Origin: Candidatus Lambdaproteobacteria bacterium RIFOXYD2_FULL_56_26
GTDB taxonomy: Bacteria > SAR324 > XYD2-FULL-50-16
Length of the DNA stretch: 64,000 nucleotides
Reading direction: 5' to 3'
Assembly: GCA_001783715.1 (NCBI GenBank)
Contig: MFNF01000001.1
Coordinates: forward strand, 434,001 to 498,000
The notes below the pieces were generated by a model. The model made no database searches and had not been told where the DNA came from. It saw only the letters and a program-made list of their open reading frames with translations. Every line of letters begins with the position of its first letter. The stretch's first letter is position 1. Positions 8,455 to 35,504 of the stretch are shown here, one piece after another. The position numbers and the translations under genes are program-made.

Positions 8455-9582
8455 TTACTTGATGATCAGCTCGGCCTGCAAGGCCCCAGCGGATTTGATG
8501 GTTTTGAGCACCTCAATCAGGTCTCCGTTGCTGATCCCGATCTTGTTGAGGCCGTCCACCACTTCTTTGATGTCCACCCCGCCCTTGAAGAGGATCACGT
8601 TGCCTTCTTCTTCCGGCTCGGGGGTGCCGTCTCCGGCGGGTTTTTTGGTTTTCGGGTCGATCACCGGTTCCTTCTCGCCGATCCTGATGTTCAGGTTCCC
8701 GTAGGAAATGGCGATGGGCAGGATCCGAACGTGGGTCCCCATGACGATGGTGCCGGTCCGTTCATCCAAGACAACCTTGGCGATTGCGTCCGGTTCAATG
8801 TCCATGTTTTCGACCCGGCTCATCAATTCTACCGTCTGGCCCAGGTAACTCGAAGGGACGGAGATTTCCACCGTTCCGGCATCGGAGGCACGGGCAGAAC
8901 CATCGCCCAGGTTGCGGTTGATCACCTTGGCGAGCCGAAAGGCGGTGGTAAAGTCCGGCTCCTTGAGGTTCAAAAAGAGACGGGTCCGAGTGTTCAGCTC
9001 CAGGTTGATTTCCCGTTCCACCAGGGCTCCGCCGACCACCCGTCCGACCGTTGGGACGATGTTTCGTTTGGCATCAAACTTAAATTCCTGGGCACCGATC
9101 ATGTTCCGGGCATCGGGAAGCTCTACCCCCATCGGGATGTCCACCACCGGCCCTTGGGCTACCGCAAAGACCTCTCGGTCCGGGGCCCGCAGGGGGGTCA
9201 TGATCAGAATCCCGCCCCGCAAGGAGGCTGCATCCCCCAAGGCGCTGACGGTGACATCCAACTTTTGCCCTTGTTTGGCAAAGGGGGGCAAGGTCGAGGT
9301 GACCATCACCGCCGCCAGACTGCGGCCCTTGATTTCGTTGAGGTTCATCGAGATACCCATCCGCTCCAAGGCGTTGCGCAGGGGTTTTTTGCTCATCAAA
9401 CTTTCGGCGGAATCCCCGGTCCCGTTGAGACCGATGACGATGGAAAACCCGATCAACTGGTTGTCCCTCATCCCTCGAATCCCGGCCAAGTCTTTGATGC
9501 GAACCGCAAAGGCCGGTTCGGCCCCCAAAACCATCAGGGTCAAAAACAGGACGGTCAATCCCTTGAGGCGGCCTAGGTTCAT
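8455..9582 (-). CDS. flgI: flagellar P-ring protein FlgI
   Basis: FlgI forms the periplasmic P ring around the rod. The chosen ATG (9582) gives 375 residues, with a signal peptide of about 26 residues ending in PAFAVRIKDLA. An in-frame upstream ATG would place 16 polar residues before the signal peptide and is rejected. AGAGAG lies upstream of the chosen start. The conserved opening IKDLAGIRGMRDNQLIGF and the closing GISNGDLIEVLKTIKSAGALQAELIIK-type end are present. A glutamate/proline insertion near residue 305 (GTPEPEEEG) is a local oddity. Confidence 0.95.
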   Translation of the reverse strand: MNLGRLKGLTVLFLTLMVLGAEPAFAVRIKDLAGIRGMRDNQLIGFSIVIGLNGTGDSAESLMSKKPLRNALERMGISMNLNEIKGRSLAAVMVTSTLPPFAKQGQKLDVTVSALGDAASLRGGILIMTPLRAPDREVFAVAQGPVVDIPMGVELPDARNMIGAQEFKFDAKRNIVPTVGRVVGGALVEREINLELNTRTRLFLNLKEPDFTTAFRLAKVINRNLGDGSARASDAGTVEISVPSSYLGQTVELMSRVENMDIEPDAIAKVVLDERTGTIVMGTHVRILPIAISYGNLNIRIGEKEPVIDPKTKKPAGDGTPEPEEEGNVILFKGGVDIKEVVDGLNKIGISNGDLIEVLKTIKSAGALQAELIIK

Positions 9583-9688
9583 GGAATTCTCTCTTGAAGC
9601 TTTTTGGGGTGCCTGCTGGGGTCCACACACCGCTGTGGTTCCTTTGCAGCTCTTGTTTTAAGGTTTTTGCTCCGGCTTCACCCTGAAG

Positions 9689-9703
9689 GCAAAGCCTTTG
9701 CCA
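9689..9703 (-). promoter_or_regulatory. candidate sigma-54 promoter before flgI
   Basis: The minus strand reads TGGCAAAGGCTTTGC. The sigma-54 consensus is TGGCAC, 5 bases, TTGC; only the sixth position differs and the spacing is exact. Transcription would start about 95 bases before flgI, downstream of the flgH terminator, so flgI would head its own unit. The same bases form a 7-bp inverted repeat (GGCAAAG/CTTTGCC), so a structural role cannot be excluded. Confidence 0.55.
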
Positions 9704-9762
9704 TAGAAGTGATTATGCACAGGCCATACCTTTTGGCCCGGTAAATCAAGGGGGGCGGGGGT

Positions 9763-9790
9763 AAAAAAAAAAGGCCCCGGGACGGGGCCT
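9763..9790 (-). terminator. intrinsic terminator after flgH
   Basis: On the minus strand AGGCCCCG pairs with CGGGGCCT around a three-base loop and is followed by ten T residues. It lies 32 bases after the flgH stop codon. It would end the flgFGAH transcript and separate it from flgI onward, which has its own promoter candidate. Confidence 0.88.
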
Positions 9791-9821
9791 CTCTCTGCCT
9801 TTCCTTCAAACCGGCTTCAGT

Positions 9822-10622
9822 TTACTTTTTGGTCCCAACCGGCTGGGTCCGGTTGGCAGGGGTAGGAGTGGCAATGTGGCTCAACCGGTCCAACATACCT
9901 GCAGGCTGTTTACCCACCAAGGGAGAAAGCGCAGCTAGGTTCAGCTTCCGGGCCAAGACCTGCCGTTTGATCTGCACCTCGGATCGAGCGAGCTTCAAGG
10001 ACTCCACTTCGTTTTTGTCCGTTACATCTTCAGGCCGAATGATCCCTTGGATGCGGGTCAAATAACGTACCGAGTTTTGCTGCCGGTAGTCGATCTTTTC
10101 GCCCACCACCACCATGTTGCCGTTGGGCAGCACCTGGGTGACCCGGGCGCTGATCTGTTTGAGGCTGGTCAAGACTTCGTTCTGTTCCTCTTCCACCTTG
10201 GCCTCCCCGGAAACGGCGCTGGCCACGTCCAGGACTTGGTTGACCTTGGCGGCCGCACCTTCAAGACCGGGTGCCGCCAATGCGGCAGCGGTGACCGGTT
10301 CGGGCTTTTTCTCCGGTTTGGAGACGATGATGATCTCCTGCAAGCCGGTGATGGTCAAAACGTCGTTGCGAAACCTTGCCCGGTGGTCCCGCAGCAGGTT
10401 GCCCCAACTGGATTCGTCTCGCCACAACGAACCTTCGTAACGGTTCTGCTCGGCGGGCAGTTCCCCCCGGGAGCGGAAGCTGTGCTCCCGGTTGTCGCTG
10501 TAGTCCACTTCCGGCCTGGGTGGCGGCGGAGGCGGTGCGGTCGGGGTCGGCAGAGGCATCCGGTTTTGGGAACAGGAGGCCGCCATCAAGGTCAACAAAC
10601 ACAAGGCAATCAGGTTTCTCAT
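9822..10622 (-). CDS. flgH: flagellar L-ring lipoprotein FlgH
   Basis: FlgH is the outer-membrane lipoprotein that forms the L ring. Residues 1-16 form a lipoprotein signal peptide with lipobox MAAS-C and lipidated C17. A proline run follows (25-36). The core segments GSLWRDESSWGNLLRD and a terminal NSVRYLTRIQGIIRPEDV resemble the family's conserved SLW and G.VRP.DI motifs. The 266 residues are slightly longer than the 230-residue norm. GGAGGAG precedes the ATG. Confidence 0.94.
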   Translation of the reverse strand: MRNLIALCLLTLMAASCSQNRMPLPTPTAPPPPPPRPEVDYSDNREHSFRSRGELPAEQNRYEGSLWRDESSWGNLLRDHRARFRNDVLTITGLQEIIIVSKPEKKPEPVTAAALAAPGLEGAAAKVNQVLDVASAVSGEAKVEEEQNEVLTSLKQISARVTQVLPNGNMVVVGEKIDYRQQNSVRYLTRIQGIIRPEDVTDKNEVESLKLARSEVQIKRQVLARKLNLAALSPLVGKQPAGMLDRLSHIATPTPANRTQPVGTKK

Positions 10623-10634
10623 GGGGCTCTCCTC

Positions 10635-11639
10635 CTACAACGCCACTTCCACTTGCTTGGCGTCAATCACCACAGCATAGACGGTTTTTTTGTTGCCCAA
10701 GATCTGCACGGGGATTACATCCCCCTTTTTCCCGTCCCTCATGGCAATGGCCATGTTGGAGAGATAAACTCCGGCGCTTTGGAACACCAATCGCACCGGT
10801 TGCCCCTTTTCGAGGATCACCGGCTCTTCCACCAGATGGGTGCGGATCGACTCGTTTTTGCCGATGTCTCGCCGGGCCTGTTGGCCGACCACCAGTCCAG
10901 GGTTGTCGGTAAAGTCTGCCGCTTCATTGGAGATATCCTTGGGCACCTTGGCCAAGTCCTCTTCACTGATCGTGGCCCCTTTGGCAATCACGTCCTTGGC
11001 GACCACCACGTCTTCGACCACCGAAACCTTGGCCCGAACCACCAGTTTTTTGTACAACTTTCGGTCCACCTCCAGGTTGACCGCCCAAGACCCGAACCCA
11101 CCCACCTTTTGGGGGGTGCCAATCCGCTTGATCACATAGGTGGCTTCCCCTTTGGGGATGTATTGGTCCTTGAGGTGGGTTTGGATCTCGACCTGCACGT
11201 CCTTGTATTCGGAGAAATTCTTTTTGATTTCCTCAACGATCACTTGGGAAAGCTGGTCCTTTTCGATCAGAATGCTCGCCCGGCTGACCAAAGGTTCCTT
11301 GGGCAGGATCAGCTTGTACTGGTCCGGGTGCACCAACCCACGCATCTTAGCGTCGATCTGGCCTTTGGAAAGTTTTTGGGAGTTGCCGGGCAGGGGGCTT
11401 TTGCCGATTTCGATTTTGGAAAGCCTGGTGGTCAAATCAATATCGAATCCGTCCAACTCGGCGATGTCCCCCAATTGGTAGGTATCCCCATAAACCACCG
11501 CTTCGGGCATCACCCGAATCTCGACCTTGTTGAGCAATTCGCCGTCCGGCTCCGCTTGGACCGCTGGACCAAAGCCCAGCCCCAAGCCCAAGACCGCCAC
11601 CAGCAACCCCCACATCGGCTGGAACAAAGTTGGTTTCAT
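10635..11639 (-). CDS. flgA: flagellar basal body P-ring formation chaperone FlgA
   Basis: FlgA is a periplasmic chaperone for FlgI assembly. A signal peptide covers about residues 1-29, ending PAVQA. The C-terminal part has the SAF-domain pattern, including VVAKDVIAKGATISEEDL and GQQARRDIGKNESI, and ends with VYAVVIDAKQVEVAL. At 334 residues it is longer than the E. coli protein (219) because of an extra N-terminal region, as in many deltaproteobacteria-like groups. AGGAATTAG precedes the ATG. It lies between flgG and flgH. Confidence 0.9.
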   Translation of the reverse strand: MKPTLFQPMWGLLVAVLGLGLGFGPAVQAEPDGELLNKVEIRVMPEAVVYGDTYQLGDIAELDGFDIDLTTRLSKIEIGKSPLPGNSQKLSKGQIDAKMRGLVHPDQYKLILPKEPLVSRASILIEKDQLSQVIVEEIKKNFSEYKDVQVEIQTHLKDQYIPKGEATYVIKRIGTPQKVGGFGSWAVNLEVDRKLYKKLVVRAKVSVVEDVVVAKDVIAKGATISEEDLAKVPKDISNEAADFTDNPGLVVGQQARRDIGKNESIRTHLVEEPVILEKGQPVRLVFQSAGVYLSNMAIAMRDGKKGDVIPVQILGNKKTVYAVVIDAKQVEVAL

Positions 11640-11652
11640 CTAATTCCTAAGG

Positions 11653-12441
11653 TTAACGTACAATGTTCACTGCGGTTTGCAGCATGTTGTCCGAAGTCTG
11701 GATCGATTTGCTGTTCACCTCGTAGGCCCGTTGGGCCACGATCATGTTGACCATTTCGTCCACCACACTGACGTTGGATTTCTCCAAAAACCCTTGGCTG
11801 ATCAGACCGATTCCGTCTTGCCCCGGATCGGCGGTGACTGCGGTGCCCGAGGCGGCGGTGGCCATAAAAAGGTTTTTGCCGATCGGGTTTAACCCGGCGG
11901 GGTTGATGAACTTGGCCAGTTGGACGTTGCCGATCCGGGTTGGGGTCGGGTCGTCGCCCACCAAAATTTGCACCACTCCGTCTTGGGAGATAATCAATTT
12001 GGTGGCTTCGGGGGGGATCACAATTTCAGGCTCCATCGGGTAACCGTCAGGGTTGACCACCCTGCCGTTGGCATCCCGCTGCCAAGCGCCGTCCCTGGAG
12101 TAGGAGATCGAGCCGTTGGGCCGCAAGACTTGGAAAAAGCCATCCCCATCGATGGAGATGTCCAGGTCGTGGCCGGTGTGGGTCAAGTTGCCTTGGGTGA
12201 AGACCTTTTGGGAGCCGATCAACTTTACCCCGTGTCCTTTGTGCAGACCGGTGGGGCTAATCGTGTTGCTGCTGGTGGCGGAACCGGCCACAATTTCGTT
12301 GGAGTAAAGCAGGTCCTGGAAGTTGTTGCGGCTTTGTTTGAAGCCGTTGGTGTTGACGTTCGCCAAGTTGTTGGCAATCGTATCAATCTGGGACTGCTGG
12401 GCGCTCATGCCGGTCGCCGAGGTATAAAGGGAGGTCATCAT
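11653..12441 (-). CDS. flgG: flagellar distal rod protein FlgG
   Basis: FlgG forms the distal rod that crosses the P and L rings. The 262 residues carry the axial N-terminal motif IDTIANNLANVNTNGFKQSR (about 19-38). The C-terminal motif VVDEMVNMIVAQRAYEVNSK is followed by a helix ending TAVNIVR. Length and features match FlgG rather than FlgE. The first of two adjacent ATG codons is preferred because AGGAG lies 10 bases upstream. It is 29 bases downstream of flgF. Confidence 0.95.
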   Translation of the reverse strand: MMTSLYTSATGMSAQQSQIDTIANNLANVNTNGFKQSRNNFQDLLYSNEIVAGSATSSNTISPTGLHKGHGVKLIGSQKVFTQGNLTHTGHDLDISIDGDGFFQVLRPNGSISYSRDGAWQRDANGRVVNPDGYPMEPEIVIPPEATKLIISQDGVVQILVGDDPTPTRIGNVQLAKFINPAGLNPIGKNLFMATAASGTAVTADPGQDGIGLISQGFLEKSNVSVVDEMVNMIVAQRAYEVNSKSIQTSDNMLQTAVNIVR

Positions 12442-12470
12442 TGTAGGTCAACTCCTAAGGAAATTCTAAA

Positions 12471-13241
12471 TTAAACCCGGGCGATATTGATCACCTGACC
12501 GGACAAATCATCGTTGCTGCGCAAGGCCCTTTGGGCGGCTTCATAACTGCGGTTGAGGTTGATCATTTCAACCATCTCTTCCACCGTCTCCACGTTGGAA
12601 CCTTCATAAACCCCCTGCTGGACCACTGCTCCATCGAAGGAGTTGGGCACCTGGGCATCCGAACCGGGCAGCCAGTAGCTGTTGCCCAACTTGGTCAACC
12701 GGTCAGGCTGCTCAAACTTAACCACTTGCAGGGTGTCCACTTTTTTGTTGTCCACCAGCACGTTCCCTTCGGACCCGACCGCAAAGTTGGCCCCGTTGAT
12801 CTTGATGGGCCCGTTTTGCCCCAAAACCTTGTCCCCGCTGTTGGTGATCAGGAAGTTGTCCTTGTCCTTCATGAACCGACCGTTTCTGGTATAAACCAAC
12901 CCCTTGTCACTTTGGACCACAAAAAAGCCCTCTCCTTGCAAGGAAAGGTCAAAGGGGTTGTCCGAAGGGGTCATTTTGCCGGTGGTCATCCGGGGGGAAA
13001 CATGGTCGGGAGCGACAAAGGAAACGTTGCCCCGGCTGAGCGGGGAGATGTAGTTTTCATGGACAAACTGTTCCTGGTCCGACTCCAGGTCCTGGGTCGA
13101 ATATTCGTTGAACAGCTCCTTAAAAAGGACCGTGTCCTTTTTGTATCCAGGGGTCTGGGCGTTGGCCAAGTTGTTGGAAACCGCCTCCATCTGACGTTGT
13201 TGCCCCTTGAGGGCGGAGGTAAGGGCGTATATGGAATCCAT
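12471..13241 (-). CDS. flgF: flagellar proximal rod protein FlgF
   Basis: FlgF is the proximal rod protein secreted by the flagellar export gate. The 256 residues have the axial N-terminal motif MEAVSNNLANAQTPGYKKD (18-36) and the C-terminal motif VEEMVEMINLNRSYEAAQ. A middle FFVVQSDKGLVYTRNGRF segment is typical of FlgF/FlgG. It is the first gene of the flgFGAH unit and lies 46 bases downstream of a strong sigma-54 promoter match. Confidence 0.93.
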   Translation of the reverse strand: MDSIYALTSALKGQQRQMEAVSNNLANAQTPGYKKDTVLFKELFNEYSTQDLESDQEQFVHENYISPLSRGNVSFVAPDHVSPRMTTGKMTPSDNPFDLSLQGEGFFVVQSDKGLVYTRNGRFMKDKDNFLITNSGDKVLGQNGPIKINGANFAVGSEGNVLVDNKKVDTLQVVKFEQPDRLTKLGNSYWLPGSDAQVPNSFDGAVVQQGVYEGSNVETVEEMVEMINLNRSYEAAQRALRSNDDLSGQVINIARV

Positions 13242-13484: not shown

Positions 13485-15281
13485 TCAGGGCGATGCGGGG
13501 GCGGGGAGGAACTGGCTGAGTGCCAGTTTGAGTGCATCAAATTGGATCGGTTTGGGCAGATAGCCGTCCATGCCTGATTGGAAACACCGGTCCTTGTCGG
13601 TTTGGTGGGCCAGCGCGGTGACCGCCACCACGCTCAAGCCCTTGGGCAGGTTGCCTTCGGACTGGAGCGCCCGGATCCTCCGGGTGGCTTCAAATCCGTC
13701 CATCACCGGCATCACACAGTCCATCAAAACCAAATCATAAGCGGCATTTTGGAGCAGCTCCAGGGCCTGGAGCCCGTTTCCGGCGAAGTCGGCTTGGCAG
13801 GCGTTCATCTCCAACATCCGGCCAATCACCATTTGGTTGAGTTCGTCGTCTTCCACCACCAAAATCTTTCGGACCGCCGGAGTTCCTTTGCGGGCCTGTT
13901 TTTTCCTGGTCTCGGACTTGGGGCGGATAGAGGGTTCTTTGGCCACAGTCGGCACCTGCGAGAGCGCCACCCTTGGTTCTGCTTGGGCGGGCAGCTCTTG
14001 GTCCACCTGCTCCGGTCCTTTTGTGGACAAGGGCAGAGAAACCACAAACTTGGTCCCTAGGCCCGGTTCGGATTCTACCCGAATCTGCCCTTCCATGGTT
14101 TCCACCAAGGCCTTGACGATGCTCAAGCCCAGCCCCAGACCGCTGTAGCGCCGAGAGGTAGTCACCCCAATCTGGGTGAAGCTGGTAAACAGCAGCTCCT
14201 GGTCTTTGGGGGCAATCCCGATCCCCGTATCGGTGACCGCCAGACTGACCCACCAGACCCCCTCCTCCCTGAGTTTTCCTTGAGCCGAAAGGGTGACCGA
14301 GCCCTTGTCGGTAAACTTGACCGCATTGCTCAAAAGGTTGGAGAGAATCTTGCCCAGCCTCAGCCCGTCTCCCCACAAGATTGGGGGCAAGGAAGGGTCG
14401 ATCTCCACCGAAAGTTGGAGCCGCTTTTGCTCCAACAACGCCTCAAACAAATCCGCTTCGGTTTGGCACAACTCCCTCAGGTGGATCTCCCGCACCGGAC
14501 GGTTCAGCCCTTTGCCGCTCAGGTGGCTAAAGTCGAGAATCTCTTGGATAACCGTCAGCAGCGCTTGGCAGGAGGTCTGTACCGTTTGGGAGAGATGTTT
14601 TTCCTCCTCGTTTTTGGAGGAAAGCAACATCAACTGCGCCGCCCCCAGGATCCCGTTGAGCGGGGTTCTCAGTTCGTGGCTGGCGACGGTCAGAAAATTC
14701 GACCTAGCCGCCGCCGCTTCCTCGGCAGCCCGCTGGGCCTGCTCCGCCTTCTTTTGGGACAAGGCCCGGAGCAACTCGTTTTTGAGCAACAGACTGGCAT
14801 GTTGGAAAAAAGCCGGCAGGTGGGGATAAAGCCCATCCGCCTCCAGGTGCAGGTTTTCCATCCGAATGACCCCCAAGGCCTCCCCTTCAACCTTGAGAGG
14901 GAAAACCCAAGTCCAACTTTTGCCGAACTCCGGGGTCTGCATCTTGGTTTCCTCAAACCCTCCTTGGAGGATCTCCGGGGTTCCACTGACAAAAACCCTG
15001 GCCGAGACCGGATCGGGAATCTCCCTGTGTTCGGTCCGGCTGCCAAAAACGTCCACCTGCCGCACCACCCCTTGGGACAGGTAATAGGCAATGATGTTGG
15101 TCCCGCCCACCACGTCCAGGATGGCACCCAACAGATTTTGCACCATGTTCTCCACCCCTTGGGTCGAGACGAGGCGCTCCATCATCTGCACCACCAATTG
15201 CAGGGAGGATTTCTCGGCGGCCAGCCGTTGCAACCGGGCCTGGGGGTCCAGGGCCTCGGAAAGGGGATTTGGGGGTTTCAT
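13485..15281 (-). CDS. hybrid sensor histidine kinase (GAF-like, HisKA, HATPase, REC)
   Basis: This soluble 598-residue hybrid kinase has no membrane segment. A GAF-like sensor region spans about residues 20-170. HisKA follows with phospho-acceptor H202 in ASHELRTPLNG. The ATPase motifs are NLLSNAVKF, DTGIG and GLGLGLS. A C-terminal receiver has acidic residues near 478-479, phospho-acceptor D521 in LMDCVMPVMDG and K577. The ATG at 15281 overlaps the stop of the DUF1638 gene by 4 bases. A longer in-frame upstream extension reads through that gene and is rejected. Its place as last gene of the corrinoid operon suggests it senses something linked to that system (inference). No output gene is adjacent. 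Confidence 0.88.
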   Translation of the reverse strand: MKPPNPLSEALDPQARLQRLAAEKSSLQLVVQMMERLVSTQGVENMVQNLLGAILDVVGGTNIIAYYLSQGVVRQVDVFGSRTEHREIPDPVSARVFVSGTPEILQGGFEETKMQTPEFGKSWTWVFPLKVEGEALGVIRMENLHLEADGLYPHLPAFFQHASLLLKNELLRALSQKKAEQAQRAAEEAAAARSNFLTVASHELRTPLNGILGAAQLMLLSSKNEEEKHLSQTVQTSCQALLTVIQEILDFSHLSGKGLNRPVREIHLRELCQTEADLFEALLEQKRLQLSVEIDPSLPPILWGDGLRLGKILSNLLSNAVKFTDKGSVTLSAQGKLREEGVWWVSLAVTDTGIGIAPKDQELLFTSFTQIGVTTSRRYSGLGLGLSIVKALVETMEGQIRVESEPGLGTKFVVSLPLSTKGPEQVDQELPAQAEPRVALSQVPTVAKEPSIRPKSETRKKQARKGTPAVRKILVVEDDELNQMVIGRMLEMNACQADFAGNGLQALELLQNAAYDLVLMDCVMPVMDGFEATRRIRALQSEGNLPKGLSVVAVTALAHQTDKDRCFQSGMDGYLPKPIQFDALKLALSQFLPAPASP

Positions 15282-15886
15282 GGGACCCTCTCCCCCAGCC
15301 GGACCCAGCCGGACAGCAGGGCGGCTTCCAGGTGATCCAGGCCCACCGCCTCCCATTCCAGCGGCAATCCTGCTTGGGCGGCAGCCTTTTGGGCAAAGGC
15401 GGTAAAGTCCCCGGAGCAAGGGGTGGTCAAGGCCAGCATCCTTGTGCATTCGGCCCGAAAGATCTCTTGGACCCATTCGGGGTTGGTCCCCAGGGTTTTG
15501 GCGATGATCCGGTCCCAGTCCTGGGCCCAGGATTCCAGTAGGAAATAGGTGCCCTTGGCCAGTTCCTCCTCATACCTCGCTTCTCCCAACAACATGGAAA
15601 GACAGTTCTGGCCGTTGAAGCGGATCGCCTGGGCTTCGGACAAAAGCCGGTCCATTTGGGGGTGGCAGGCCCCATAACAAACCAGCCGTTTCTGGTCCTT
15701 CCGGCTCGCCAAGGCTTCGGTCAACTCGGATTTTAAGGCCCCAAAGTCCACATGCAGGGCGGGGGTCAAAAAATCCGTCTCCAAGGCCAGCCGGTTCTTG
15801 TGGATCAAAAAGCGCAGTTCCTTTTCCAACACCCCACAGCCAACCAAGACCGGAACCCGGTGGGGGTTAGAACCTTCCGTATTCAT
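15278..15886 (-). CDS. DUF1638 family protein
   Basis: The 202-residue cytoplasmic protein matches the DUF1638 pattern: an opening VGCGVLEKELRFLI, then LVCYGACHPQMDRLL, then KGTYFLLESWAQDWDRII. Cysteines in the first two blocks and later (about residues 17, 65, 69, 95, 147 and 157) could bind metal or a corrinoid intermediate. The biochemical role of the family is not settled. Members are often encoded beside corrinoid methyltransferases, as here. Its start overlaps the end of the UroD-like gene by 20 bases and its stop overlaps the kinase start, so the genes are translationally coupled. Confidence 0.8.
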   Translation of the reverse strand: MNTEGSNPHRVPVLVGCGVLEKELRFLIHKNRLALETDFLTPALHVDFGALKSELTEALASRKDQKRLVCYGACHPQMDRLLSEAQAIRFNGQNCLSMLLGEARYEEELAKGTYFLLESWAQDWDRIIAKTLGTNPEWVQEIFRAECTRMLALTTPCSGDFTAFAQKAAAQAGLPLEWEAVGLDHLEAALLSGWVRLGERVP

Positions 15887-16895
15887 AGGCCGCCTCCAAC
15901 ATCGTGAGGATGTTCTCCTGGGGGATGTACAGAGGCATCACCCCCGTGCCAAACAAAAACCTGGGGCTCCTTCTGCCAATCTCCATCATCCGTTTGACCT
16001 CGGAGCGAATCTCCTCTTTGGACCAATCAATCAGGGGGATGTCGTTGATCACCCCGCAGCTCAACCTTTGGGGGCCTACCAGTTCCAACCCTTGGGCCAG
16101 ATCGTCAAAGGGGCTCAGGTAATAGGTCCCGATCCCCAACTCCTTGATCACCGAAGGAATCGCTCCATTGAGCCTTGCCATCCCGCAATAATAAACCACC
16201 CCGGCCATCCCGCCGGGCTCCAGGTCCCGTTTCATCCAGACCATGGATTCCTGGTGGAAAAAGTTCTCCGGGATCACGTCCATGGAGCCGTAAGGGTTGG
16301 AATAAAGCAGGATGTCCGCCCCAAGGCTACGGAAAGCGGCGATTTCCTTGCGGAAAAAGTCGGAGGTTTTTTCCAGCAACAGGTTTTTGAGTTCCGGCGG
16401 CCCCCAGAACAACAGCTCCATCCATTTTTCCATGCCCATCAATAATACCGGCAAGGTCATCGAGCCGGTCAGATAGGCGCAAATGGGGTAGCGTCCCCCC
16501 AGTTCCTGCTTGAGGATCTTCAGGCACTTTGCCTGTTCCTCAAAGGCTGGGTGGGCAGTGATGTCATCGGGGATCACCAGCTTTTCAATGTCTCCGAACT
16601 CCTTGACAACAAAGTCCTTGACGTTGGGCGGTCCGTCTTTGGCAAACAGGATCTCCTTGCAGCCCATCAGCTCCGCTTCCTTGCCGACGTAAAACAGGCT
16701 CCATACGTTGTCGTAGCCGTACCTGGCCCGCATCTTGATCTGGGCTTCCGCCACCAGATCCCCCCGTTGGTAGTATTCCTCCAGGGAAACCCCCAGCTCC
16801 AAGGCCCCTTGGTCAAAGAGATTGCAAAACACAGGGACCCGGTCGGATTTTTTGCCGTTGACCGCTGCCAGGAGCCTTTCCATTCCGGTGATCAT
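15867..16895 (-). CDS. uroporphyrinogen-decarboxylase-fold methyltransferase (MtaA/CmuA-like), divergent
   Basis: The 342 residues match the UroD-superfamily methyltransferases that move methyl groups between corrinoid proteins and an acceptor thiol or tetrahydrofolate. The opening ERLLAAVNGKKSDRVPV and the closing IPQENILTMLEAAYEYG are typical. MtaA-type enzymes bind zinc with an H-x-C motif and a late cysteine. Here the first reads Y235-Y-C237, and no cysteine lies in residues 312-329 where the last ligand is expected. Zinc-thiol chemistry is therefore doubtful, and the acceptor may differ. Its ATG overlaps the end of the B12-binding gene by 4 bases. Confidence 0.82.
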   Translation of the reverse strand: MITGMERLLAAVNGKKSDRVPVFCNLFDQGALELGVSLEEYYQRGDLVAEAQIKMRARYGYDNVWSLFYVGKEAELMGCKEILFAKDGPPNVKDFVVKEFGDIEKLVIPDDITAHPAFEEQAKCLKILKQELGGRYPICAYLTGSMTLPVLLMGMEKWMELLFWGPPELKNLLLEKTSDFFRKEIAAFRSLGADILLYSNPYGSMDVIPENFFHQESMVWMKRDLEPGGMAGVVYYCGMARLNGAIPSVIKELGIGTYYLSPFDDLAQGLELVGPQRLSCGVINDIPLIDWSKEEIRSEVKRMMEIGRRSPRFLFGTGVMPLYIPQENILTMLEAAYEYGRF

Positions 16896-17578
16896 AGCAC
16901 CTCCCCTTGCAAAAAGCGGGTAATCACTCGCCCGGCGCTGATCCCATCATCGGCCCAGGCATCGGCCCGGACTACCTTGTACAATTCCGGGTCAAAGCGG
17001 AAGGGGGCACCTCCTACCACCAACTTGATCCGATCCTCCACCCCCCGTTGGGCCAAAAGCTCCCGTACCGCCAAGGCTCCCTGTTCGCCCCGGGCGGTGT
17101 GGACCATCATTGCCGAAATGGCGATTACACCGGCACCCCTCGCCTGGGCCTCATCAACAAACTTCTCCGGGGAAACGTTGACCCCCAGGTCGGTCACCTC
17201 GACCATCAAGGACTTGAGGCAACCGATCACGATCCTTTTGCCCAGGGTGTGCAGGTCGCCAAAAGCGGTACCGATCACCACCCGGCCCAGGACTGCAGGT
17301 TTTTGGGAGAACTTGGAAAGCAGCAGGTCAGTAACTTGGGAGGCAATCTGGGCGGTCATGAAATGTTGGGCCAAGCTGGCGTTAAAGTCCTCGCTGACCG
17401 CCTTGATCATCCGGTCCATGGAGGGGATCACGGCGGAAAAAACCAACTCCTCGGCGCTGATCCCTTGGTCCAAGGCCTGCTGAACTACCGCAAAGGCTCG
17501 GTTCCGGTCGGTATCAAAGACCGCTTGGTAAAACGCCTCGGTCACTCCAACGATTTCAGGACTGCCGTTTGTCGCCAT
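16892..17578 (-). CDS. corrinoid-binding methyl-carrier protein (MtbC/MttC type)
   Basis: This is a B12-binding methyl carrier of 228 residues. A helical cap domain (about 10-90) includes SAEELVFSAVIPSMDRM. A Rossmann-like domain carries the D108-x-H110-x-x-G113 motif, where the histidine is the lower cobalt ligand. VVGGAPF near the C-terminus matches the family's GG loop. The ATG at 17578 follows AAGAGGGAAA. A longer in-frame start would reach into the promoter and is rejected. It heads the operon with the UroD-like, DUF1638 and kinase genes, and a divergent gene encodes the matching activator. Confidence 0.9.
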   Translation of the reverse strand: MATNGSPEIVGVTEAFYQAVFDTDRNRAFAVVQQALDQGISAEELVFSAVIPSMDRMIKAVSEDFNASLAQHFMTAQIASQVTDLLLSKFSQKPAVLGRVVIGTAFGDLHTLGKRIVIGCLKSLMVEVTDLGVNVSPEKFVDEAQARGAGVIAISAMMVHTARGEQGALAVRELLAQRGVEDRIKLVVGGAPFRFDPELYKVVRADAWADDGISAGRVITRFLQGEVL

Positions 17579-17599
17579 TTTCCCTCTTCCATGGCCCTG

Positions 17600-17680
17600 T
17601 GGCGGAACGATTTGTTGTCCGCCAACAGTTTGCTCTTCCCCACCGTGCCCATTATCACTCTTTTTACGGTCCAATTGCAA
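17600..17680 (-). promoter_or_regulatory. promoter and inverted repeat of the corrinoid operon
   Basis: On the minus strand TTGCAA (17675-17680), 18 bases and GATAAT (17651-17656) form a sigma-70-like promoter. Downstream, TGGCGGA and TCCGCCA (17600-17606 and 17618-17624) form a 7-bp inverted repeat with an 11-base spacer. It would lie at about +20 to +44 and end 22 bases before the first ATG. It could be an operator or a leader hairpin. The region also separates the operon from the divergent activator gene. Confidence 0.45.
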
Positions 17681-17775
17681 TACAAAAGCCCGAATCAAAC
17701 CGACTCTCCATTCAAAGGTTGCAACGGTCCCACGGTTCCCCTAGAATGAGGCAGAACCTTATTTCCCAAAGACCG

Positions 17776-19365
17776 ATGGACCGTCTTTTGCTCAGCGGAC
17801 CCCAGGGTTCATTGACCCTAGATTATACTCCCGGCCCAACCCTGGCGGAGTTGCTGGGGTCCGGCACCGGGGCGATACCGGGGTCCTGTTCGGCTCAAGG
17901 GCTTTGTGGGCTTTGCCGGGTACAGGTTCACCATGCACAAGTGGACCTTGCCCCGGCCGACAAGGCCGAAGCTGCCACCTTGGGGGAAAAAAGACTGGCC
18001 CAAGGTTGGCGGCTCGCCTGTCGGTTTCGTCCCCAGGGGCAAGTGGAGCTGTGGCTGCCCCGGCAAGAGACGGGGCAGGTTTGGCGGCAGACCTCCCCTT
18101 GGCTCCCCCACTTCCCCGCTCCGCTCCGGGCATTGGCTCCCGCCGAACCTAGACTGGGACTGGCCATTGACCTGGGGACCACCCACCTCAGTTTAGGGTT
18201 GGTGGACCGCAAAACCGGGACCCTGTTGCAGGCCCTTTGGGGCCAAAACCCCCAAAAAACCGCCGGAAAGGACCTGCTCTCCAGACTCAGCCAAGCCAAG
18301 GATTCCGAGGCCCGAGTCTGGTTGCAACAATCCGTAGGCCATGCCTTGGCCCAGGGGCTGGGGGAGCTTTTGGGCTTGGCCAAAGCGGCGGCCCCGGAGG
18401 TGGGCCGAGTCTCGCTGGTGGGCAACCGGGCCATGTTGGCGCTCTTTTTGGGTTTGGAGCCGGATTCCTTGCTCGACCCCAACCGCTGGGAGGACTCGGC
18501 CCAGAGCCTGGAAGGGGCCGGTTTGTCTTGGCCGCAGGCCTGGGGACTGGCACCGGGAACCGGCTTAGACCTGCTGCCGCCCCTGGGCGGATTTGTCGGC
18601 TCGGACCTCTTGGCCGGAATCTTTGCCGCCGACGTTGCCTCTTTGGGCGAACCTGCCTTGGTGATCGACTTTGGCACCAACATCGAAATCGCCCTTTGGG
18701 ACGGAAAACAAGGCTGGGCTACATCGGTGGCCGGGGGACCGGCGTTTGAAGGGTCGGGGTTGCGCTTTGGGATCGGGGCCATTGCCGGGGCGATCGACCA
18801 ACTTTCCTGGAACCCAGGCCCGGAGCCCCAGGCCCGCTGGGTCGAGCCCGGCCCCCCTTGGGGGCTTTGCGGGCCGGGGTTTGTGGACCTCTTTTACCAC
18901 CTCCGGCAGTCCGGGCAGGCTGATGCCCTGGGCCGCTTTGCTCCCCAACTGGAGGGGAAATTTTGTTTTACGGTGGCTGGGGAGGATTTTTGGGTAGGCC
19001 CCAAGGACCTGGACCGGTTTGCCCAAGCCAAGGCGGCGGTAGGTGCCGGGATTCTGCTGTTGCTGCGCCGGGCGGGGATCGGGCTCCAAGAGGTCAAGAA
19101 GCTGCACCTCGCCGGGGCCTTCGGCCAAGGGCTCAACTTGGTTTCGGCCCAAGCCTTGGGACTCTTGCCCAACCTCCCGGCACAGCGGTTCTTGCGGATG
19201 GGCAACGCAGCTTTGGCCGGAGCGGTTTTGGCGCTGGTTCACCCCCAAAGCGGGGAAAAATTGACCGACCTCAAGTCACGGTTCCAAACCTTGAATCTGG
19301 CCAACCAACCGGAGTTTGAGGAATTGTTTTTCTCCCAACTCCTGCTTGAGCCCCTGGCCCCCTGA
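17776..19365 (+). CDS. 2Fe-2S / ASKHA corrinoid reductive activator (RACo/DUF4445-like)
   Basis: This protein should use ATP to re-reduce inactive Co(II) corrinoid proteins to the Co(I) state. The N-terminal plant-type 2Fe-2S domain has C38, C44, C47 and C82 (CX5CX2C...C). The C-terminal DUF4445 ASKHA region follows, with phosphate loops AIDLGTTHLSLGLVD and LVIDFGTNIEIALWD and the conserved LAGAFGQGL near the end. The 529-residue length fits shorter members of the family. ATG 17776 is chosen because the ferredoxin strand begins there; ATG 17746 in the same frame is possible. It is divergent from the corrinoid carrier operon. Confidence 0.88.
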   Translation: MDRLLLSGPQGSLTLDYTPGPTLAELLGSGTGAIPGSCSAQGLCGLCRVQVHHAQVDLAPADKAEAATLGEKRLAQGWRLACRFRPQGQVELWLPRQETGQVWRQTSPWLPHFPAPLRALAPAEPRLGLAIDLGTTHLSLGLVDRKTGTLLQALWGQNPQKTAGKDLLSRLSQAKDSEARVWLQQSVGHALAQGLGELLGLAKAAAPEVGRVSLVGNRAMLALFLGLEPDSLLDPNRWEDSAQSLEGAGLSWPQAWGLAPGTGLDLLPPLGGFVGSDLLAGIFAADVASLGEPALVIDFGTNIEIALWDGKQGWATSVAGGPAFEGSGLRFGIGAIAGAIDQLSWNPGPEPQARWVEPGPPWGLCGPGFVDLFYHLRQSGQADALGRFAPQLEGKFCFTVAGEDFWVGPKDLDRFAQAKAAVGAGILLLLRRAGIGLQEVKKLHLAGAFGQGLNLVSAQALGLLPNLPAQRFLRMGNAALAGAVLALVHPQSGEKLTDLKSRFQTLNLANQPEFEELFFSQLLLEPLAP

Positions 19366-19372
19366 GGGCGGT

Positions 19373-22300
19373 CTAGGCCGGCTCGGTCTTCAAAGCCTGT
19401 TTTTGGAAGAACTGCCCCCACATCTGCAGGGTGTCCACCAGGGTTTGGGGCATCAAAGGTTTGGTTAGGTAGCCGTCAAACCCCTGGGCCGCATAAGACA
19501 GCAGGTCCTCGGTGGCGGCATTGGCGGTGAGCGCCAGGATCTTGGGCCGGTGGTTGCCCATTTGGTCCCAAATCTGGTGGGTCGCCATGATCCCGTCCAT
19601 CCTGGGCATCTGGATGTCCATCAAAACCAGCTGGAATGCCCCTTCCACCACCTTTTGGACCGCTTCTTCCCCGTCGGTGGCCGTGGTAGCCACGTAGCCC
19701 ATCCGCTCCAACATCTTGGAGGTCAGCCGGAGGTTCAAAGGGTTGTCGTCGGCCACCAGAATCTCCATGGGGTACAGCTTGGCCAACTCGGGGTAGGCGG
19801 CCTTTTTTCCGCCCAGGTTTTCTTCCAGCTTCCCGCTCAACGCCCGCTCCAAAGTCCCATAGAGGAAGGAGCGTCTCATCGGCCAAGGCAAGGACCAGGG
19901 GTCCTTTTTGGCTTCCTTCTCCCCCTTGAGGTAAAGCACCGGACCGGGGGCCGCCTGCTTTAGCTCCGCCAAAAAAGGCTTGAGCGACAGGTCGGTCAGC
20001 CTGCGGTCCACCAGGATCAAATCCACCGATTCTTTGAGCAGTTGGGGACTCCAAAACCTCGAATTGACCACTGTGACCTTGAGACCCCATTGTTCCAGTG
20101 GGTCAAGCAGTACCTTGGTCTTGTTCAGATCGTCACTGACCCAAAGCAGCCGTTTGGACAAAAAGGCCGGGTCGTTGGCCTTTTCAAAGTTCTTGAGTTC
20201 CCGCTTGAAGGGCTTGAGCGGCAAGGTAAAGGAAAAGTTTGAACCCACCTTGGGCTCACTTTCCATCCAAATCCTCCCGCCCATCAGCAGCACCAGCTTT
20301 TTGCAGATCGCCAGCCCCAGGCCCGTCCCGCCGTACTTGCGGCTCAAGGAACCGTCCACCTGTTTGAAGGCCTCAAACAGGTTGTCCTGGTACTCTTGGG
20401 GGATCCCGATCCCGGTGTCCCGGACCTGGAATTCCAAGGAGGTTTTGGCGGCATCCAAACGGCAAACCAACTGCACCGAGCCTTGTTCGGTAAATTTGAT
20501 GGCATTGCCTACCAGATTGATCAAAACCTGATTGAGCCTCGTTTCATCGGCCAAGACCGACCAGGGAACCTCGCTGTCCATCTGGCAGGCCAAGTCCAAT
20601 CCCTTGACCTCCGCCTGGACGTTGAGGATCTCGATCACCGTTTCCATCAGGTTCAAGGGGTCCACCCGACCCTCGTGGATCTCCATCCGGCCCGCTTCGA
20701 TCTTGGAGTAATCCAAAATGCCGTTGAGGATGTTCAGGAGATTTTCGCCGCTGGTGGTGATCGCCTCAATGTATTCCTGCTGGTCCTCATCCAGGTGGGT
20801 GTCCCGAAGCAGATTGCTCATCCCCAGCACGGAGTTGAGCGGGGTTCTGATCTCGTGGCTCATGGTGGCCAGAAATTCGGCCTTGGCCTTGACCGCCGAT
20901 CTGGCTTCCTCGTTGGCCCTACGGAGCTGGGTCTCGATCCGTTTGATGCCGGTGATGTCCACCACAAAGGTAATGGCCCGCCGTTCCTTCTCGGGCCCCG
21001 AAAAAATGGCGGTCTTGGACAGCAGAACCTGTTTGGTTCCCTTCAGGTTCAAGGCCCATTCCCTGGGTTGCAGTTCTTCTTGGGTCCCGGTGTCGTTGCC
21101 GAACACCACCAAATCCTTGGGAAAAAAGTCGGTGACCGGCTTGTCCACCAGGCTGTCCGACTCGATCTTAAAAAATGCGGCCAAGGCGGGGTTGGCATAT
21201 TCGATTTGCCCTTGTGGATCGGAGACCAAAATCCCCACCGGGGTATGGTCCACAAAGGCCTTGAACCTCTGTTCGGAAGCAAACAGTGCCTGTTCGGCCC
21301 CTTTGCGTTCCCCCAATTCCTGTTGGATCCGCCGGTAGATCTGCTCCATCTCATCGGTGCTTTGGTTGACCTGGGTCTCCAGCCAGCGGTTGGCATGAAC
21401 CAAATTCCGTTCGGCCTGGCTTTTTTTCCAAAAATAATAACCCAAGTAAAAGGTTGCCAGTCCCAGCACAAAACAACCAAAAAGACTTAAACTCAACGCC
21501 CAGGCCCGGTGGTTGTTTTCCTCGGGCCCCCAAAACAACGCTTGGGCCTGGAGCTGGTTCCTTTCCAGCCCCAGTTCCTTGAGCGCATGGCGGTTGTAAA
21601 TCCAGGTAAGCAGACTCTTTTGCTGGACTGTCCCTCCGCCCTTGGTCTCCAAGAGAGGCACCGCCTGGGCGGCCAGATTTTTTCCCAAGTAGAAGCTCGA
21701 CACCACCGGCCCACCCAAGGCACCCCAGGGGATCTGGTAGGCAAACAAAGGCAGGATCGGCACCGGACGCTCCAAGGCAGGCAACTGTTGGGCCTGTTCC
21801 AAGGCTTCGGAATAGCCCAACAGCACCAAGGAATCCTGGGGCAACTGGTTCAGCTCCCGGCCCAAACGCTCAAAGTCCAGCCCCTCCAGGAACAAAAAGG
21901 TGAGGTTTCTAAAGTGGGCTACCGGCTCGGTCAAAAGTGGCTTCAACAAAGCCCCGGGACCGGAGGGGTCGTTGACCACATAAACCTCCTGGGTTTGGGG
22001 GAAGAGCTGTAGCGCCGCCTTCAGCTGGAGTTCTAGGTCCGGGGTCGAGACCATCCCGCCGATCCGTTCCTCCCCGGTCAAAGCCGCCGGAGAAAGTGGG
22101 GTCTTGAGGCCCACCAAAAGCGGGGTGCCCTGCACAAAGGCAGCCCCGTCGCCGGTCGCCCATTCGAGGGTGGCCGGGTCGGTGACTAGGATCAGGTCCG
22201 GTCGATTGTTTTTGTAGCTTTGCCCGAGCAAAGCGGCCAGAGTGGGGCCGCTGGTGGGGTCGGTCCATTCGGCGGCCTCAAAGGAGCGCCAACTCAAGGG

Positions 22301-22471
22301 AAGGAAAAGTCCGGCCTCGTTCGCCCCTTTTTTGAACCCCTGCTCCAGCCCATGGTTCCAGGGGTGGGAAACCGGTTCTCCAGTCAAGGCCAAAACACCG
22401 CCGGCCCAAACCGGAGAAGCTCCGGTCAGCAACAACAGCAGAGAAATCCAAAGTGTGGGAACTAGTCTCAT
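19373..22471 (-). CDS. membrane hybrid histidine kinase with periplasmic ABC-binding-protein-like sensor
   Basis: This is a 1032-residue sensor kinase. A signal peptide (1-23, ending VWA) leads into a periplasmic domain of about 300 residues that resembles ABC-transporter substrate-binding (ABC_sub_bind) folds. One membrane helix spans about 324-347, followed by a coiled coil and a PAS domain (about 400-512). HisKA has H539 in ATMSHEIRTPLN. The ATPase motifs NLVGNAIKF, DTGIG and GTGLGL follow. A degenerate receiver-like region (LLWVSDDLNKTK ... LILVDRRLTD) precedes a canonical C-terminal receiver (LMDIQMPRMDG). The ligand is unknown. It ends 7 bases from the convergent activator gene. Confidence 0.88.
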   Translation of the reverse strand: MRLVPTLWISLLLLLTGASPVWAGGVLALTGEPVSHPWNHGLEQGFKKGANEAGLFLPLSWRSFEAAEWTDPTSGPTLAALLGQSYKNNRPDLILVTDPATLEWATGDGAAFVQGTPLLVGLKTPLSPAALTGEERIGGMVSTPDLELQLKAALQLFPQTQEVYVVNDPSGPGALLKPLLTEPVAHFRNLTFLFLEGLDFERLGRELNQLPQDSLVLLGYSEALEQAQQLPALERPVPILPLFAYQIPWGALGGPVVSSFYLGKNLAAQAVPLLETKGGGTVQQKSLLTWIYNRHALKELGLERNQLQAQALFWGPEENNHRAWALSLSLFGCFVLGLATFYLGYYFWKKSQAERNLVHANRWLETQVNQSTDEMEQIYRRIQQELGERKGAEQALFASEQRFKAFVDHTPVGILVSDPQGQIEYANPALAAFFKIESDSLVDKPVTDFFPKDLVVFGNDTGTQEELQPREWALNLKGTKQVLLSKTAIFSGPEKERRAITFVVDITGIKRIETQLRRANEEARSAVKAKAEFLATMSHEIRTPLNSVLGMSNLLRDTHLDEDQQEYIEAITTSGENLLNILNGILDYSKIEAGRMEIHEGRVDPLNLMETVIEILNVQAEVKGLDLACQMDSEVPWSVLADETRLNQVLINLVGNAIKFTEQGSVQLVCRLDAAKTSLEFQVRDTGIGIPQEYQDNLFEAFKQVDGSLSRKYGGTGLGLAICKKLVLLMGGRIWMESEPKVGSNFSFTLPLKPFKRELKNFEKANDPAFLSKRLLWVSDDLNKTKVLLDPLEQWGLKVTVVNSRFWSPQLLKESVDLILVDRRLTDLSLKPFLAELKQAAPGPVLYLKGEKEAKKDPWSLPWPMRRSFLYGTLERALSGKLEENLGGKKAAYPELAKLYPMEILVADDNPLNLRLTSKMLERMGYVATTATDGEEAVQKVVEGAFQLVLMDIQMPRMDGIMATHQIWDQMGNHRPKILALTANAATEDLLSYAAQGFDGYLTKPLMPQTLVDTLQMWGQFFQKQALKTEPA

Positions 22472-22625: not shown

Positions 22626-23399
22626 ATGGTCTTATTGGATCAAGTGATTGTAGTGACCGGCGGGGCCGGTTTGATCGGCAAAGAAATCGTCCGGCGCATC
22701 TCCGCCGCCGGTGCCATCTCGATCATCGCCGACATGGACCCGGACCGTTCCCAAGCGACCATGGAGTCGTTGGTCCAGGAGAACCCCAATGCCCGCATTG
22801 AGGCCCTCAAGCTGGACATCACCTCCAAGGAATCCCTGCAAAATCTGATCTCCACCCTGCACCAGCGGTTTGGCCGGATCGATGCTCTGGTCAACAACGC
22901 CTACCCTCGGAACAAGGCCTACGGAAGGCCCTTTTTCGAGGTGGAGTACGCCGACCTCTGTGAGAACCTGAGCCTGCACCTGGGCGGATACTTCCTGGCC
23001 AGCCAGCAGTTTGCCGGCTATTTTAAGACCCAAGGGCGGGGCAATATCCTCAACGTTTCTAGTATCTACGGGGTGGTGGCACCGAAGTTCGAGGTGTACA
23101 AAGGCACCTCCATGGGTATGCCGGTCGAATATGCCTTGATCAAATCGGGGCTGTTGCAGCTGACCAAATATTTGGCCAAGTCTTTTAAAGGGCTCAACAT
23201 TCGGGTCAACGCCATCAGCCCCGGCGGGATCTTGGACAAACAGCCTGAACCCTTTTTGAGCCAGTACAAAGACCTGTGCCTCAACAAGGGGATGCTGGAC
23301 CCTTCGGACTTGGCGGGAACCTTTGTGTTCCTGCTTTCCGATGCCTCCCGGTACATCAACGGCCAAAACCTGATTGTGGACGATGGCTTTACCCTTTGA
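22626..23399 (+). CDS. short-chain dehydrogenase/reductase, flagellin-modification FlmA/PtmA-like
   Basis: This is a 257-residue classical SDR. The NAD(P) motif TGGAGLIG is at residues 11-18, NNA at 89-91, and the catalytic YxxxK is YALIK. The ending, with GMLDPSDLAGTFVFLLSD and YINGQNLIVDDGFTL, resembles oxidoreductases annotated as flagellin modification protein A (PtmA/FlmA), which act on nonulosonate-type sugars. No other glycosylation gene is adjacent, so the substrate is uncertain. AAGGAGAAAGA precedes the ATG. Its 3' end overlaps the convergent GMC gene by 11 bases. Confidence 0.8.
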   Translation: MVLLDQVIVVTGGAGLIGKEIVRRISAAGAISIIADMDPDRSQATMESLVQENPNARIEALKLDITSKESLQNLISTLHQRFGRIDALVNNAYPRNKAYGRPFFEVEYADLCENLSLHLGGYFLASQQFAGYFKTQGRGNILNVSSIYGVVAPKFEVYKGTSMGMPVEYALIKSGLLQLTKYLAKSFKGLNIRVNAISPGGILDKQPEPFLSQYKDLCLNKGMLDPSDLAGTFVFLLSDASRYINGQNLIVDDGFTL

Positions 23400-24939: not shown

Positions 24940-25421
24940 CCTTGTACCTTCAAGACCGGTGGCCCAGGGTACCCGATGGCCTCCCAGGAGCTGGGGTTGG
25001 CGTAATAGGTGGAAAGAATCAGCTCCTGGAGGCCCACATAAGCGACCCGCAGGGTGTTGAACCGGCTGTTTGACCAACCTTGGATCATCTCCAAGACCAC
25101 TTCCTTGGGGGTCTGCTGCCAACCGCCCCAGCCGCCGCCCAGCAGCGCCTTGGTGGGCGGGAAGTCCAACAGGTAGCCCAGCTCTACCAGCTCCTTTTGG
25201 GACTGGCTGCTCAGGCCACTGATCGCCTGTTCGAGGTCGAGCAAAAAAAGTTTCCGGTCAAAGGGGTCCACCCCTGCCAAAAAGGCTTCGGACAAGGCGC
25301 TCCAGCAGGTCGCCGGGGCCGCCTTGGCAAGGGCGAACGAGCCAAAGCCCAACATCATCGTGCCCAAAAACCCGGTTTTAAGCCAAAACCGCCGTTCCCG
25401 GTTTATTTGCCGATCATCCAT
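24936..25421 (-). CDS. twin-arginine-signal small subunit associated with the GMC dehydrogenase
   Basis: The 161-residue protein starts with RERRFWLKTGFLGTMMLGFG (residues 9-28), a twin-arginine-type signal with a hydrophobic core. The remainder (about 40-150) resembles gluconate 2-dehydrogenase subunit 3-like proteins, which help export or attach the catalytic flavoprotein. The chosen ATG (25421) overlaps the aldehyde dehydrogenase stop by 19 bases; an upstream TTG/ATG extension gives an implausible N-terminus. Its coupling to the GMC gene by an ATGA overlap supports a shared complex. Confidence 0.75.
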   Translation of the reverse strand: MDDRQINRERRFWLKTGFLGTMMLGFGSFALAKAAPATCWSALSEAFLAGVDPFDRKLFLLDLEQAISGLSSQSQKELVELGYLLDFPPTKALLGGGWGGWQQTPKEVVLEMIQGWSNSRFNTLRVAYVGLQELILSTYYANPSSWEAIGYPGPPVLKVQG

Positions 25422-33835: not shown

Positions 33836-33904
33836 GGTTCTTTTTGGAGCAATATTCCAGCCCCCAAGGGCAGGCGAAAACTCGCCAGGGACCCAAGGGC
33901 CTTA

Positions 33905-34075
33905 GAATACGCCAGAATGCGAAGGGGGGATCGGTCGAAAAACCAAGACACCAACAATCGCCATCCTGTGCGCGAGGATTCTACGATTCTGGAGTTCCTG
34001 ACTTAGTAGCGAAGCTACATCACAGTTGCGCGCCAGCGAGGGATTTTCACCCTGCTTCCTCCTAGAGGCCTTATT
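33905..34075 (-). promoter_or_regulatory. cobalamin riboswitch upstream of btuB
   Basis: On the minus strand the aptamer contains GGTGAAAATCCC, the block CGCTGGCGCGCAACTGTG, and the B12-box-like AAGTCAGGAAC, in the right order. A distal part with CACAGGAT and GCATTCTGGCGT follows. The 18-base block, the GTCAGGAAC of the B12 box and the 12-base GCATTCTGGCGT are shared with the second riboswitch before cobT. There is no T-run between aptamer and btuB, so control may act on translation rather than termination. Boundaries are approximate. Confidence 0.9.
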
Positions 34076-34085
34076 CATGCCCAGC

Positions 34086-34111
34086 CCCCAAGGTTGCTGT
34101 CAACCTTGGGG
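34086..34111 (-). terminator. strong hairpin after cobT, possible terminator
   Basis: CCCCAAGGTTG and CAACCTTGGGG form a perfect 11-bp stem with a 4-base loop 17 bases after the cobT stop codon. No T-run follows on the minus strand, so it may end the cobT message in a factor-assisted way or insulate it from the btuB riboswitch beginning just downstream. Confidence 0.4.
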
Positions 34112-34128
34112 CGAAATATTTTCCTACC

Positions 34129-35205: not shown

Positions 35206-35274
35206 CTTGGGTTTTGGGTTGTGCCAACAGGCGGTTTAGTAAGCCCCAAGCTCTTGGAGCCGGGAGCCTTTTGG

Positions 35275-35462: not shown

Positions 35463-35504
35463 ATGATCCAAAAGAGGGCTTGGTGTCAACCGCCAGAAAG
35501 CGGA

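Follow-up and report, generated by a model that had tools for sequence, protein, structure and literature searches.

A corrinoid methyl-transfer gene module with a hybrid histidine kinase in a SAR324 genome as a probable signal-transduction system

Of published systems that encode a kinase together with corrinoid methyltransferases, the mec cassette, from anaerobes that degrade dichloromethane (PMC9768040), comes nearest to the one described here. Among single components, CdmB is a UroD-fold substrate methyltransferase that is independent of zinc (PMC13222342). Genetics in Phaeobacter tied a DUF1638 protein and a RamA-like protein to a split B12-dependent methionine synthase, with which both are needed (PMC5764234), and work on marine betaine use (MtgBCDE) repeats this link (PMC12478193). 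Here we analyzed a 64,000-nucleotide stretch (the window) from Candidatus Lambdaproteobacteria bacterium RIFOXYD2_FULL_56_26 (assembly GCA_001783715.1, contig MFNF01000001.1, positions 434,001 to 498,000), in which genes for a corrinoid carrier, a UroD/MtaA-fold protein, a DUF1638 protein and a hybrid histidine kinase form one operon, divergent from a gene for a RACo-type activator. This set is probably a signal-transduction module that takes its input from corrinoid methyl-transfer machinery.

The pairing of such genes with signaling outputs recurs across many phyla, often as fused proteins, and therefore the most likely explanation is a sensor, so far undescribed, that is assembled from methyl-transfer enzymes, rather than a food-degrading pathway. 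The predicted signaling role is well supported by genomics, namely by which genes are present and how they are conserved, by naturally occurring fusions of DUF1638 to kinases and to GGDEF domains, and by the lack of any catabolic enzyme that would accept the methyl group. We found no published description of the module in the literature on DUF1638, PF07796, or corrinoid proteins with kinase or GGDEF domains, a search from which subscription papers fell mostly outside.

Composition of the operon

The carrier (16892..17578, 228 amino acids), the UroD-fold protein (15867..16895, 342 amino acids), the DUF1638 protein (15278..15886, 202 amino acids) and the kinase (13485..15281, 598 amino acids) are all encoded on the minus strand, with overlaps, read from the sequence, of 4 bases (ATGA), 20 bases and 4 bases (ATGA), respectively. 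The kinase start was set at the ATGA-coupled ATG at 15281, correcting the mechanical open reading frame list, which had placed it at 15476; the most likely starts of the carrier and the activator are the ATG at 17578 and position 17746. The activator (17746..19365, plus strand, 539 amino acids) is separated from the carrier by an intergenic region (17579..17745) presumed to hold a shared promoter. An initial annotation, made from the DNA letters without database searches, had described four genes overlapping by 4–20 bases in one operon, a D-x-H-x-x-G motif in the carrier, and a divergent 2Fe-2S/ASKHA activator; the overlaps were as described, Pfam assigned the genes to the families it had named, and the carrier motif reads G-D-L-H-T-L-G.

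The carrier is predicted to bind a corrinoid, with PF02310 (B12-binding, E 7.8e-21) and PF02607 domains and PDB relatives 1y80, 7xcn, and 3ezx, and it carries a GGAPFRFD motif typical of the signaling family. Against TIGR02370, the model for methyltransferase-cognate corrinoid proteins, it scored 92.1 bits, under the curated cut-off of 215.3 bits.

Its UroD-fold partner matched PF01208 (E 1.9e-41) but scored 74.4 bits against TIGR01463 (MtaA/CmuA methyltransferases), under the curated cut-off of 235.4 bits. The best Foldseek match of its AlphaFold model (predicted local distance difference test score, pLDDT, 87.5) was the methyltransferase 4ay7 (template modeling score, TM, 0.88). In the 4ay7 alignment the zinc ligands of MtaA (His, Cys, and Cys) read Y235, C237, and Thr, and the pattern His-x-Cys...Cys is absent; UroDs that accompany fused sensors (the fused clade, see below) read HxA and DNH at these positions and share the pocket signature HxASG...DNHGEIP. 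The window clade (5 sequences) and the fused clade (33) together formed one clade (support 100/99) that excluded 22 other UroDs, among them HemE, in a tree whose bootstrap was not fully settled, several of whose outgroups were long-branched, and which held no characterized O-demethylase. The window UroD is probably methyltransferase I or else a ligand-binding protein that partners the carrier; by analogy, catalysis is possible because the zinc-independent CdmB exists (PMC13222342).

The DUF1638 protein matched PF07796 at 95.3 bits (E 4.6e-27; gathering cut-off 27 bits). Its AlphaFold model (pLDDT 86.8, predicted TM score 0.82) had no significant Foldseek match in the PDB (best E 8.6e-3, TM < 0.5), so the fold gives it no function, and a sequence search of the PDB returned no match. 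In alignments C17, C74, and C95 are nearly invariant, and at position 45 the window clade and non-signaling DUF1638 proteins have His, whereas fused sensors have Cys. The resulting Cys/His/Cys/Cys set looks like a metal site, one that appears to be absent from the papers we found. Such metal-ligand-like residues (C17, H/C45, C74, and C95), the loss of zinc ligands from UroD, and the link of DUF1638 and RamA-like proteins to B12 reactivation (PMC5764234) would also suit a redox or oxygen sensor, with RACo setting the oxygen-sensitive Co(I)/Co(II) state that serves as the signal, DUF1638 reading it, and UroD only modulating. We consider a sensor of that kind improbable, as UroD is conserved in nearly all loci and has a pocket signature of its own that suggests a dedicated ligand, and fused-type operons have no linked RACo.

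In the kinase, Pfam identified HisKA, HATPase_c, and Response_reg domains, and the H202, N-, G1-, and G2-box and receiver Asp motifs are intact. Its GAF-like N-terminal region (14697..15281, minus strand) aligned by hhalign with the segment that follows DUF1638 in fused sensors (E 2.8e-4, probability 41%).

The activator has Fer2, Raco_middle, and RACo_C_ter domains, all over the Pfam cut-offs (3.5e-52), that is, a 2Fe-2S domain and an ASKHA ATPase domain, and its best PDB match was RACo 3zyy (4e-44); it fell under the curated cut-offs for AcsV (192.4 of 800 bits) and Ram (83.7 of 500 bits). The closest RACo homologues lie in signaling settings, so the window clade combines DUF1638 with a signaling-type RACo: one (in L202) accompanies a carrier-UroD-DUF1638-kinase locus and a gene for a receiver-GGDEF-EAL protein, and others lie beside a kinase in L199 and in G221, the latter on a contig fragment. 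The homologues in L168 and L221 belong to a second architecture lacking DUF1638, in which the genes after carrier, UroD, and RACo encode a kinase with an NtrC-like regulator (L168, 7537–14740) or a GAF-GGDEF protein (L221, 4599–9710). Corrinoid modules thus seem to have been coupled to signaling more than once.

Conservation and natural fusions

Two kinds of DUF1638 turned up in a search of 145 relatives, one encoded beside an MtgC-like carrier and one making up the N-terminus of a longer protein. The first kind served as a control: among 12 SAR324-class loci with DUF1638 beside an MtgC-type carrier, a kinase was detected in none. The second kind was found in four genomes (G015, G027, G006, and G111), where DUF1638 is followed either by GAF-like, HisKA, HATPase, and receiver domains or by GAF-like, GAF, and GGDEF domains. 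In G015, which belongs to the same class as the window genome, and in G006, genes for a carrier and a UroD precede the fused gene.

Scanning 84,980 species with the sensor regions of these four proteins yielded 36 loci, spread over Desulfobacterota, Chloroflexota, Verrucomicrobiota, Acidobacteria, Nitrospirota, Riflebacteria, Pseudomonadota, Actinomycetota, Kiritimatiellota, SAR324, and further groups. The order in most is carrier-UroD-[DUF1638-GAF-output], in many the UroD and sensor genes overlap, and Pfam found DUF1638 in the third gene of 34 of the 36, HATPase_c in 22, and GGDEF in 6. The fused form occurs in named strains (Geomonas sp. Red32, Desulfobacter vibrioformis DSM 8776, Desulfatitalea alkaliphila M08but, and Dethiosulfatarculus sandiegensis SPR). 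Some fused sensors (L057, L060, L063, and L089, the last partial) end not in a kinase or cyclase but in a Cys-rich domain with the pattern PICxxCKKIR...GYWxQIExYI...FSHGxCPxC. A Riflebacteria locus (L077) has the split DUF1638 / GAF-kinase order seen in the window.

Searches anchored on UroD gave a second view. Against 395 Desulfobacterota genomes the window UroD matched proteins of G221 (59% identity), G332 (48%), and G206 (47%), followed by a gap to 27–29%; all three genomes show carrier-UroD-DUF1638-kinase, the G221 carrier being cut by the contig end. A Methylococcaceae metagenome-assembled genome (MAG; L202) has these four genes as well, with RACo and the receiver-GGDEF-EAL gene ahead of them, so that all 4 close relatives keep the window gene order. 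That MAG holds both a fused DUF1638-GGDEF system (L065) and the split window-type system. Within the Desulfobacterota, 6 of 7 family UroDs are linked to DUF1638 and an output, and G298 has one orphan family UroD. An independent, domain-wide sample of 383 genomes gave five matches below 1e-100 (the window included), all of which adjoin DUF1638 and an output, and the rest above 1e-46; three matches near 1e-45 to 1e-42 fall outside the family. One of these five, G684, also shows the split four-gene order, and there the N-terminus of the split kinase (L219) matches the fused GAF-like segment at 2e-22.

The gene arrangement exceeds chance, because the same order is found in other phyla. Pairwise distances of carrier, UroD, and DUF1638 proteins correlated over 28 loci (r 0.37–0.66; 0 of 2000 permutations; species relatedness not controlled), which supports joint inheritance.

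Host genome inventory and the fate of the methyl group

The window genome (3.08 Mb, 97% complete) encodes a single carrier-sized B12-binding protein over the Pfam cut-off, that of the window, the other matches lying in frames of at least 489 amino acids, one of which is MetH. It has two UroD-family proteins, HemE and the window UroD, and no PF06253 (MttB) protein was found in the whole genome. Its only PF00809 pterin-binding proteins are FolP and MetH, and it has no methyl-corrinoid:folate methyltransferase (methyltransferase II). The absence of this methyl acceptor enzyme argues against a catabolic module, and there is no known route in the genome that would consume the methyl group.

The same inventory bears on an operon for methyl catabolism, a demethylase operon with a conventional two-component regulator, in which UroD would be methyltransferase I and the kinase would control expression only. 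The mec cassette, with its histidine kinase, receiver protein, corrinoid protein, and UroD/CmuA-type methyltransferases (PMC9768040), sets a precedent for it, as does CdmB for a zinc-free methyltransferase I of UroD fold (PMC13222342). Yet methyltransferase II is absent here, and a MetH query of 42 related loci, a weak search of limited sensitivity, found no separate folate methyltransferase; in most relatives DUF1638 is fused to a kinase or cyclase, a fusion that a plain transcriptional regulator would not need, and GGDEF outputs exert no direct control of transcription. We therefore regard methyl catabolism as unlikely, and a catabolic demethylase was rejected as the leading view for a genome with neither an MttB protein nor methyltransferase II.

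A reactivation helper for methionine synthase, with the kinase merely sharing the operon, would have its parallel in Phaeobacter, where the split synthase needs both DUF1638 and a RamA-like protein (PMC5764234). It is very improbable here: the genomic MetH carries its own PF02965 activation domain, on which ground this candidate was rejected, the UroD and kinase partners are kept across phyla, and DUF1638 is fused to signaling domains. Two named system types were also tried. A split methionine synthase with DUF1638 does not fit, as a stand-alone pterin-binding module is absent and MetH with its activation domain is present; a type 1 mlp cluster requires Mlp2 and Mlp3 and was rejected, as the genome has only HemE and one such UroD.

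Set against these results, the initial annotation is supported in part. Its link of the kinase to the module is borne out by an output in 5 of 5 window-clade members and in most of the 36 fused-type loci; the genome survey it proposed, which could have shown the kinase not to be conserved with the module, found the opposite, and the four-gene order it suggested looking for was present in G221, G332, G206, L202, L077, and G684. The kinase, which it had called unusual for such a module, is instead a defining part of a widespread family. Its suggestion of methyl-donor sensing within the operon agrees with what is now the leading explanation, sensing by methyl transfer. It had seen no substrate methyltransferase, and PF06253 is indeed absent genome-wide, but a separate enzyme need not be missing, since UroD-fold proteins of the CdmB type can themselves be substrate methyltransferases (PMC13222342). 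The role of DUF1638, which it left open, is not wholly so, given the Phaeobacter genetics (PMC5764234) and the natural fusions to signaling domains reported here.

Elsewhere in the window, a second hybrid kinase (19373–22471, minus strand, 1032 amino acids) with PAS, HisKA, HATPase, and receiver domains and a long N-terminal region that Pfam leaves unassigned is convergent with the activator gene. A gene for a GMC-type flavin oxidoreductase, assigned by sequence, adjoins one for an aldehyde dehydrogenase (23389–26818, minus strand), possibly an alcohol oxidation pair. About 8–20 kb from the module lies a cluster for B12 uptake and late synthesis (27187–39652 and 33974–34107, minus strand), with CbiB, an ABC ATPase, a BtuF-like protein, a TonB receptor, CobT, CobU, an aminotransferase class protein, and a CobB/CobQ-type amidotransferase, and with a cobalamin riboswitch upstream of the TonB receptor gene.

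Putative sensing mechanism and relation to described systems

Methyl transfer and its direction, the docking of DUF1638 on the carrier, the nature of the signal, the mechanism, and the output target are inferred. The UroD-fold protein, which would load or read the carrier, would bind a ligand that is methylated or of a similar kind and most likely move its methyl group to the Co(I) corrinoid of the carrier, and the RACo activator would spend ATP to bring carrier oxidized to Co(II) back to Co(I). DUF1638 may dock on the carrier, distinguish the methylated from the Co(I)/Co(II) state, and pass that state to the GAF-like region of the kinase, whereupon a phosphorelay would begin. That the family forms a sensor class detecting a methyl donor by reaction, with UroD methylating the carrier and a metal-binding DUF1638 leading to a kinase or cyclic-di-GMP output, is a tentative proposal that we hold at somewhat below even chances. 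The kinase gene is followed on the same strand, after 244 bases, by flagellar genes (FlgF/FlgG/FlgA/FlgH/FlgI-like by sequence; 8455–13241, minus strand), and relatives repeatedly have GGDEF/EAL outputs, which makes control of motility or lifestyle an attractive candidate target.

Several points weigh against a corrinoid-based signaling module. Signaling, corrinoid binding, and the contacts between parts are predictions from genomics. Two of the three MtaA zinc ligands are lost from the window UroD and the fused clade differs again, so that UroD might bind a ligand and catalyze no reaction. Similarity between the GAF-like region of the window kinase and the fused sensors is only weak, and no response regulator cognate to the kinase was identified next to the window operon. 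RACo genes, present in 26 of the 35 genomes with a fused system, were detected inside none of the fused-type operons and were not seen in 9 of those genomes, so activation is not uniform, although gaps in MAGs may contribute. The 36 loci came from a query built on four fusions, which biases the fusion rate, and only the UroD-anchored samples are free of this bias.

The usual input of a sensor is ligand binding; this family suggests instead a B12-dependent methyl-transfer reaction as input to two-component and cyclic-di-GMP signaling in many phyla. If true, DUF1638 would gain a function as reader of corrinoid-protein state, its unexplained role in B12 reactivation would be connected to signaling, and there would be a genetic handle on the methylated compounds that bacteria monitor.

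Among described systems, the mec cassette (PMC9768040) also has genes for a histidine kinase and a receiver among those for a corrinoid protein and for UroD/CmuA-type methyltransferases, and in most versions MecGH are proposed as reactivation proteins. Unlike the window, it has a methyltransferase II, a transporter, a PocR domain on the kinase, and catabolic expression, and fusion of its kinase to methyl-transfer parts is not reported. The three-part methionine synthase of Phaeobacter inhibens (PMC5764234; MtgBCDE, PMC12478193) resembles the window in having DUF1638 beside a B12-carrier gene and tied to a RamA-like activator, but it serves methionine/betaine metabolism with pterin- and homocysteine-binding modules, and a UroD-fold partner or kinase is not described. 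The Cdm chloromethane system (CdmB/CdmC, PMC13222342) and MtaA (4ay7) likewise pair a UroD-fold methyltransferase with a small corrinoid carrier; they are catabolic or methanogenic, use an acceptor methyltransferase II or coenzyme M, and have no linked sensor. Type 1 mlp clusters (PMC10418091) combine UroD-fold (MtaA-like) proteins, a corrinoid protein, and a Ram/RACE activator in one cluster, but each has two or three Mlp proteins, and DUF1638 or a kinase is not reported. Finally, the window activator shares with RACo/AcsV activators (3zyy) the 2Fe-2S domain, Raco_middle, and the RACo C-terminal ASKHA domain, whereas it scores far under the AcsV and Ram cut-offs and has its closest homologues in carrier-UroD signaling operons.

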